The position numbers and the translations under genes were made by a program. Below the pieces are notes generated by a model that was not told the DNA's origin, did no database searches, and was given only the letters and a program-made list of their open reading frames with translations. This document shows, piece after piece, positions 10,834 through 12,827 of a stretch of 41,422 nt of DNA. This DNA is from Chloroflexota bacterium (lineage in GTDB: Bacteria; Chloroflexota; Chloroflexia; QHBQ01): contig JANXYP010000218.1 in NCBI GenBank assembly GCA_025355955.1, positions 1 to 41,422 of the forward strand, read 5' to 3'. The first letter of the stretch is position 1; each line of letters starts with the position of its first letter.

Positions 10834-12105
10834 GTGGATCCCAGTCAGACATTGAGGTTTACCAAAATCTACCTAAAGAACTGGCGCAACTTCGCCGAGA
10901 TCGAGGTGGAGTTGCCGCGTCGCGCCTTCCTGGTGGGGCCGAACGCTTCGGGCAAGACTAATTTTCTGGATGCTCTTCGCTTTGTTAGTGAACTAAGCAC
11001 ACTAGGTAGTGGCGGCTTCCGACAGGCTGTTAAGAGAAGGGGAGGGTTTGACAGCCTGTATACTAAATTGTCTCGTAGAGAGGCTCTCATAACTATAAGG
11101 TTGACGGTAGGACACGATGATCATCCTGCTATATTCGAGTATGAACTAACTTTTACCCAAGATAAAGATCAGTCAGTTCCGTTTATAGTTAGCGAGGTAA
11201 TCAGAAGATATAACGAAGACATACTAAAAAAGCAAGTAGATGAGAAGGTAATAGATGGAAGGAAAGTCCGAACGCTTGAAGGACCTGCTGCTATCCGAGA
11301 TGTATATGGAAAGACTGTGCTTATGGAGCCAAAGCAATCAAGCAATAAATTGCCGACACAGAGTTACCTTGAGAATGAGATTTGGCGTTCTTTCTTCCCT
11401 GATTTTGCCGACTTTCTCGGCTCTGTCCGCCACTTTAATGTCATACCGGCTTTGGTACGTCATTTCAACATGAATGCAGCAAATGAGGATGGTTATAACG
11501 ATTTTATTGAGCAGATCGCTAGTGCGCCTGAAGAACAGCAGAGTAGTAAACTAAAACAGATACAGGAAGTGCTGCGTGGGGCAGTGCCGCAGTTCAAGGA
11601 GCTTAGAGTTGCACGTGGAACGTTCGACGAGCCTCATCTCTACGCACGCTACTCCAACTGGAAGGGGAACAAAACATGGGAGAACGAGGCAAAGTTCTCT
11701 GATGGCACGCTGCGACTGATAGGGCTGCTGTGGGCGATGTTGGATGGAGCCGGGCCGATGCTAGTGGAGGAGCCAGAGCTATCACTACACTATGGAGTGG
11801 TGCGCTATATTCCTCAAATGATTGATCGTCTTGGCTATAGTTCGGGCCGCCAAGCGATAGTCAGCACTCACTCTACGGACTTGCTGCGTGATGAAGGGAT
11901 AGAGCTTGAGGAAATTATCCTGCTAACGCCGGGACGGCAGGGAACCTCAATTGCAGCAGCAAGCTCGGTCGAGGAGATTCAGACATTGGTTAGCAATGGG
12001 TTCAATCTAGCCAGCATTGTACAGTCCATCACATCTCCAATGGATGCTGATGAGGTGGCCTACTTCGATCCTGCCACTCCAACCACTCAGGAAGCAGTTG
12101 CCTAG
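10834..12105 (+). CDS. AAA family ATPase (AAA_21/RecF-OLD-like, no TOPRIM domain)
   Basis: Walker A VGPNASGKTNFLDAL; KFSDGTLRLIGLL; Walker B/D-loop GPMLVEEPELSLH; IVSTHSTDLL; GTG start 16 bp after rimO. Confidence 0.85.
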   Translation: MDPSQTLRFTKIYLKNWRNFAEIEVELPRRAFLVGPNASGKTNFLDALRFVSELSTLGSGGFRQAVKRRGGFDSLYTKLSRREALITIRLTVGHDDHPAIFEYELTFTQDKDQSVPFIVSEVIRRYNEDILKKQVDEKVIDGRKVRTLEGPAAIRDVYGKTVLMEPKQSSNKLPTQSYLENEIWRSFFPDFADFLGSVRHFNVIPALVRHFNMNAANEDGYNDFIEQIASAPEEQQSSKLKQIQEVLRGAVPQFKELRVARGTFDEPHLYARYSNWKGNKTWENEAKFSDGTLRLIGLLWAMLDGAGPMLVEEPELSLHYGVVRYIPQMIDRLGYSSGRQAIVSTHSTDLLRDEGIELEEIILLTPGRQGTSIAAASSVEEIQTLVSNGFNLASIVQSITSPMDADEVAYFDPATPTTQEAVA

Positions 12106-12116
12106 GAGATTGCTTG

Positions 12117-12827
12117 ATGCGAACGGTGTCCTACGCAGCCGAAGGTCAGGTAGATAATGCTGTCCTACTTCATTTGATGGAGTATGTCGGTATACGGCCA
12201 GGCAAGCCGATATTGTTTGGTGGAGATCAACAATGGAAAGGTCAACGACCAACTGTCATTGTAGCCGGTGTTCCAAGAACCCTGGAGCATAGCAGCGGAC
12301 AGGGTCTGGTGTTGGAGGCAGTGGCGCTATTCAATGATGCAGCTCGATACAAAAGGTGGTTTGCCATTACCGACCTCGATAATAAGTTTGCCTGTGCTGG
12401 GCTTGCTCGCCAGCGCTGGCTGCCAAGTCCCGCACCGTATATGTGCTTTCGTATCGCAGTACAAGAAATAGAGGCGTGGCTTATAGCTGATAAACAGCGG
12501 TTTGCTGAATTTCTTCAAGTTGACCCTGGTATTATTCCTAACAATCCAGAGGACATCCGTGACCCTAAAGAGCAGAGCTTGATTATGATGCCGAAGGAGA
12601 TGATACTCACTCTCGCCCAAAGCTCCCTTGACCCTCAGATTTACCCTCGACTGAAAGCTGTTAGCTCCTACAACAATGAAATGGGCAAGTTCGCCAAGAA
12701 ATATTGGCGACCAGCAATAGCAGCTCAAAACTCCCCCAGCCTAAAGAAGTGTATAGAACGCCTTCAGCAACTCTCCAAAGGACTGAAGGTAAATCCCCCA
12801 GTCAAAAAGAAGCATAAGCGTTCATAA
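12117..12827 (+). CDS. DUF4276/TOPRIM-like protein, putative partner of the upstream ATPase
   Basis: MRTVSYAAEGQVDN (acidic AEG), FAITDLDNKF (DxD) and FRIAVQEIEAWLIADKQRFAEFL match the DUF4276 pattern; 11 bp after the ATPase stop. Confidence 0.6.
   Translation: MRTVSYAAEGQVDNAVLLHLMEYVGIRPGKPILFGGDQQWKGQRPTVIVAGVPRTLEHSSGQGLVLEAVALFNDAARYKRWFAITDLDNKFACAGLARQRWLPSPAPYMCFRIAVQEIEAWLIADKQRFAEFLQVDPGIIPNNPEDIRDPKEQSLIMMPKEMILTLAQSSLDPQIYPRLKAVSSYNNEMGKFAKKYWRPAIAAQNSPSLKKCIERLQQLSKGLKVNPPVKKKHKRS

Follow-up and report, generated by a model that had tools for sequence, protein, structure and literature searches.

An ATPase–DUF4276 gene pair between rimO and a GDPD gene of a Chloroflexota bacterium belongs to the candidate defence system HEC-01 and has a predicted TOPRIM-like partner

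What are the two genes that stand between rimO and a GDPD gene in a Chloroflexota bacterium, and what might they do for their host? An earlier note on this DNA, a contig of 41,422 nucleotides (JANXYP010000218.1, hereafter the window), took them for a candidate defence cassette made of an ATPase and a DUF4276/TOPRIM-like protein. Its description of the locus is accurate. The ATPase gene (10834..12105, forward strand, GTG start, 423 aa) and the partner gene (12117..12827, forward strand, ATG start, 236 aa) are intact, full length and on the same strand, with rimO upstream (9372..10817, forward strand) and a convergent GDPD ORF downstream (12764..13696, reverse strand). A gap of 16 nt, as claimed, separates rimO from the ATPase gene and holds a Shine-Dalgarno-like AGGAAGG (10819..10825, forward strand) eight bases 5′ of the GTG. 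The second gap, also as claimed, measures 11 nt; the AGGAG of the partner gene shares bases with the stop codon of the ATPase gene, and the spacing of the two genes is that of translational coupling. At the other end, the final ~21 codons of the GDPD ORF (64 nt, 12764-12827) lie antisense to the 3′ end of the partner gene, and this extension of the GDPD frame into the partner suggests that the insertion removed the original stop of the GDPD gene.

Third-position GC content (GC3) is 0.49 in the ATPase gene and 0.47 in the partner gene (about 0.48 for the pair), against about 0.70-0.83 in the other window genes, a range that leaves out the CDP-OH gene, whose value came from a wrong reading frame; the pair is indeed AT-richer than its neighbours, although the first ~45 ATPase codons, said to be an exception, are only mildly GC-richer (0.55 versus 0.48 over the remainder). 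In the rimO–ATPase gap we found neither a sigma-70-like promoter nor a terminator, with a scan that is weak in that it gave fewer sites than chance, and the claim that the pair has no promoter of its own stands to that extent. Co-transcription with rimO, as previously proposed, is probable, and the pair is probably expressed from the rimO promoter. We saw no defence island among the neighbouring ORFs at this locus, where the neighbours are rimO and the GDPD gene; a defence-island setting is thus not borne out here.

Because the best PADLOC models for the two proteins are HEC-01A (PDLC04180, 4.8e-109, residues 7-408) and HEC-01B (PDLC04194, 1e-43), in the right order and with the partner 11 nt downstream, the pair is, by its sequence, the already catalogued PADLOC candidate defence system HEC-01 and not a new system. 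HECs are the “Hma-embedded candidates” of a 2024 preprint, several of which, including HEC-06, are reported as active or validated according to its citation in PMC12988326, and a 2025 study of Desulfovibrio piger (PMC12724379) names HEC-01 as a system. Nothing specific on antiviral activity of HEC-01 was found in the open-access literature searched. Two features set the window pair apart from HEC-01: no defence system surrounds its locus, and its subfamily has a partner with an insert of ~25 residues which, among the aligned sequences, is common only to P0002, P0003 and the copy on contig C370. The partner had been labelled DUF4276, which is the right family, although this divergent copy scores only 18.9 bits against Pfam DUF4276, under the cut-off of 30.2.

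The first of the two proteins matches Pfam AAA_21 (9.6e-31) and is, by its motifs and profile matches, an OLD/AriA-type ABC protein. Its motifs are intact, as the earlier note had read them: the Walker A GPNASGKT (residues 35-42; 10936..10959, forward strand), in which G35, P36, N37, A38, G40 and K41 are invariant across 46 homologues, the Walker B LVEEPELSLH and the STHS motif, with most motif residues invariant among relatives. Its AF2 model (pLDDT 84) matches PtuA, Rad50 and SMC heads in Foldseek (best E 5e-14). In profile comparison the protein also hits chains of GajA, OLD and AriA, the solved AriA chains covering it along part of its length only. The protein ends after the ABC core and, in Pfam and in the model, is without a TOPRIM family match, in agreement with the earlier observation that it has no TOPRIM of its own.

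Several known systems share this architecture in part. One of them is PARIS (AriA + AriB), which has the phage anti-restriction protein Ocr as its trigger and also splits an ABC ATPase from a separate TOPRIM-like partner. In PARIS, AriA detects a phage protein and in turn switches on AriB. The latter is a two-metal Toprim nuclease with tRNA as its substrate (PMC12409363; PMC12839542) and E26 as its reported Toprim catalytic residue (PMC12409363). However, the window partner is a DUF4276 protein and not an AriB/DUF4435 one, with no match to PF14491, so that we rejected membership in PARIS on Pfam evidence. OLD and Gabija GajA have a related ABC ATPase, and the window partner aligns with OLD TOPRIM motifs I-II; by contrast, the window ATPase has no fused TOPRIM and no gene for a GajB UvrD-like helicase lies next to the pair. 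Class 1 OLD and Gabija were rejected because the ATPase lacks a C-terminal TOPRIM and the pair lacks a helicase neighbour. The ATPase also matches AbiLi of AbiL (AbiLi/AbiLii) and mad3 of MADS, much more weakly than HEC-01A; these weaker PADLOC matches are AriA (9.1e-33), AbiLi (9.4e-22) and mad3 (3.7e-20), with GajA and Old also far behind HEC-01A. No other MADS genes were recognised by eye among the neighbouring ORFs.

The partner, a protein of 236 residues, contains the motifs AEG, ITDLDN and VQEIEAWL, as originally described. Glu9 in AEG (12141..12143, forward strand), the putative TOPRIM motif I glutamate, is conserved in 98 of 99 homologues, the remaining one having a gap, and is aligned to the glutamate of VEG in OLD TOPRIM. 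Asp86-Leu-Asp88 (12372..12380, forward strand) is the putative DxD and aligns with that of OLD; D86 is present in all 99 homologues. At position 88, 79 of them have the second Asp and 20 have N; other branches of DUF4276 carry Y or E in its place. The conserved E...DxD is thus found, with D or N at its end. Glu119 in EIEAWL (12471..12473, forward strand), the third invariant acidic residue (99/99), resembles the DLE motif that the DUF4435 protein of locus L087 carries. In the AF2 model (pLDDT 94, pTM 0.89), E9 follows strand 1 (3-8), D86 ends strand 3 (81-86) and E119 comes after the strand at 109-114; a glutamate after strand 1 and DxD after strand 3 is the order expected of TOPRIM.

Profile comparisons point in the same direction. 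With HHalign, the HEC-01B profile matches an OLD-like TOPRIM profile at 72.5% (E 3.3e-5, score 37.7) and a separate broad DUF4276 profile does so at 81% (E 1.2e-5, score 39.4), pairing VEG with AEG and DxD with DLD over about 60-80 columns that span motif I to DxD only. The maxima of 60 column-shuffled controls were 16.6 and 14.9, and reversed profiles scored 12.4 and 11.6. Against a three-sequence DUF4435 profile, the alignment covered the motif I region only. In a decoy test with 360 real ORFs, only three decoys, DUF4276 proteins themselves, outranked L121, L126 and the DUF4435 protein of L087 under the broad DUF4276 profile, and most other TOPRIM sequences came just under the best remaining decoy; the narrow A2 profile separates less well, single TOPRIM sequences ranking only moderately among decoys against it. 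Foldseek returned no significant match for the partner model at E < 0.01 (best PDB E 0.018, best BFVD E 0.046). Since the profile match stands above its controls but is not joined by a Foldseek match, we call the partner TOPRIM-like at the level of sequence: the TOPRIM assignment is largely supported and the fold putative. Together with the conservation of E9, D86 and E119, the OLD TOPRIM match supports the proposed split of an ATPase from a TOPRIM-like protein. The word DUF4276 was not found in the literature searched, nor is DUF4276 described there as a large family of TOPRIM-like nucleases.

On these grounds, the reading that we favour, and hold to be reasonably probable, is that the HEC-01 pair works much as PARIS does, as an immune module whose TOPRIM-type nuclease is gated by the ATPase. 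The gating of a nuclease by the ATPase is proposed by analogy with AriA/AriB: an ATPase oligomer would bind the partner and keep it inactive until triggered by a phage product or a phage-induced change; the partner, with metal held at E9/D86(/D88)/E119, would then cut DNA or, like AriB, an RNA such as tRNA, and this cutting would abort infection. We infer the sensing step, the target and the abortive outcome from that analogy. The pair might instead act as a defence or toxin-antitoxin-like unit whose partner, instead of a TOPRIM nuclease, is a different Rossmann-like protein, enzyme or adaptor, that bears an acidic metal site, the ATPase being its antitoxin or sensor. Such a partner would fit the lack of any TOPRIM structure among the Foldseek matches of a confident model, the variable second Asp, and the conservation beyond the TOPRIM core of K160 (invariant in 99/99 homologues), Y185, W197 and S208. 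It sits poorly, however, with a similarity to the OLD TOPRIM profile that lies far over the shuffled controls and aligns the catalytic positions, and we judge it unlikely.

In a search of one genome per species, the partner turned up at 80 loci, which represent about 23 phyla and include archaea. At 76 of these loci, the gene directly upstream of it, on the same strand and mostly with a spacing of -4 to +9 nt, is that of the ATPase. The four exceptions are loci that start at a contig edge (L024, L050, L072) or are broken into pieces (L064). Other, more distant DUF4276 genes have an ATPase match in 36/36 loci, some of which overlap or repeat one another, nearly always directly upstream. Pairing is near-obligate, and the recurrence anticipated in the earlier note is real. 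ATPase and partner distances co-vary across 70 loci (Mantel r 0.795, null maximum 0.422), which linkage alone would also give, and the subfamilies of the two proteins agree within one genome. The ATPase tree mixes phyla (44 label changes versus a minimum of 22 and a shuffled mean of 52), and 60 class relatives yielded no ATPase homologue at 1e-30. From near-universal pairing, phyletic mixing and absence from class relatives, the pattern is that of a horizontally moving two-gene unit. In PLSDB plasmids and INPHARED phages, tblastn gave no match, and IMG/VR gave two weak matches only, on contigs (L205, L206) that each encode a relative and may be phages or misbinned host DNA. According to PADLOC and Pfam, the near and far neighbours of homologues comprise type III methylases, Schlafen, AIPR, TOTE and other AAA_21 proteins as well as many housekeeping genes; these scans give families and not counts of positive proteins, and we claim no defence enrichment. 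In other bacteria, a second DUF4276 gene lies within about 6 kb of the first (L041:14289, L069:5978, L067:7959), which indicates that HEC-01 modules can cluster. Broken partner copies in L064 (fragmented frames around 8001-8489) and L096 (in-frame TAA) indicate that the system decays in some hosts.

Within the window's own assembly, a 5.15 Mb MAG that is 84% complete and 3.5% contaminated, there are seven HEC-01 pairs: that of the window and those on contigs C370, C273, C85, C259, C319 and C94 (genome G000, the window being contig C204; loci L005 and L140-L144). Their ATPases fall in four HEC-01A models of PADLOC (04180, 04177, 04184, 04178), and identity between copies is so low (18-47% for ATPases, 14-44% for partners) that they are not recent duplicates. 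The same Pfam search found five DUF4276 matches in this MAG versus at most three in any other of 250 genomes of the phylum. GC3 of all seven pairs is below that of host genes, mostly 0.47-0.58 and, for the C273 pair, 0.61-0.66. The C319 pair is a clean operon insertion (L143:5143-7192), placed exactly between rimI and tsaD, 9 nt 3′ of the former and 8 nt 5′ of the latter, whereas rimI adjoins tsaD without a pair in 21 of 29 class relatives. Likewise, rimO homologues occur in 29 of the 40 class relatives searched, and none of the 29 has a pair within about 1.5 kb. For all seven pairs, the adjacent gene on one side or both is on the same strand and no more than 80 nt away; elsewhere, this holds for 29 of 65 (p 0.006 in a post hoc test with approximate gene calls). 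Their flanks look like housekeeping genes; none of the seven, C370 with its flanks included, was seen in a defence island, no integrase or transposase is among the ORFs listed for the seven stretches, and in the two cassettes inspected there was no convincing target-site duplication or terminal repeat. Three sites adjoin translation or tRNA genes, possibly by chance: the window at 10834 (rimO), L143:5804-7192 (rimI-tsaD) and L141:4006-5870 on C85 (pth two genes upstream). Such neighbours are of interest since AriB, a possible functional analogue of the partner, cuts tRNA.

A wider proposal, which we advance tentatively and regard as rather doubtful when taken whole, is that the DUF4276 proteins make up a large family of TOPRIM-like nucleases with OLD-like ATPases as their partners, and that the seven divergent pairs of this MAG, as lone cassettes in or beside core operons (rimO, rimI-tsaD, the pth-fur cluster, near nuo genes), express immunity from housekeeping promoters instead of from a defence island. 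The same neighbourhoods could mean that the pair does a job of the cell's own, such as stress regulation or the quality control of nucleic acids, that is tied to host genes like rimO, rimI-tsaD or pth, and a cell-cycle role is known for the OLD-family ATPase Cran1 (PMC12796447). Against this, which we find quite improbable, stand the patchy distribution, with no close ATPase homologue in the 60 class relatives, as well as the atypical GC3, the phyletic mixing, the high divergence among copies of one genome and the existing HEC listing, all of which fit an accessory defence gene. A selfish or decayed insertion that currently has no function in its host strain is a very improbable reading of the window pair: this copy departs from several near-invariant family residues, such as G at position 182, and broken copies exist elsewhere, yet neither ORF is truncated, the motifs of the ATPase are intact, as is the E/D/E set, and the Shine-Dalgarno sites are retained together with the spacing.

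Under the favoured reading of an ATPase-gated, TOPRIM-type nuclease, HEC-01, a widespread candidate system of unknown mechanism, becomes testable through its probable catalytic residues E9, D86 and E119, and its likely relation to PARIS and OLD is indicated. Beyond the HEC-01 listing, our analysis adds quantitative support for a TOPRIM-like DUF4276, the near-obligate pairing, and a genome of seven copies with one inside rimI-tsaD. These seven divergent pairs offer a natural set in which to study differences in trigger and target, and defence genes as guests of core operons. Elsewhere in the window, a solute-binding-protein-like ORF (19094-20776) has a repetitive VTPTAMMA tract near its N-terminus, and positions 1-567 (reverse strand), 10 kb from the pair, encode a partial DNA methyltransferase, cut by the contig edge, that looks like the Mod subunit of a type III restriction-modification system.
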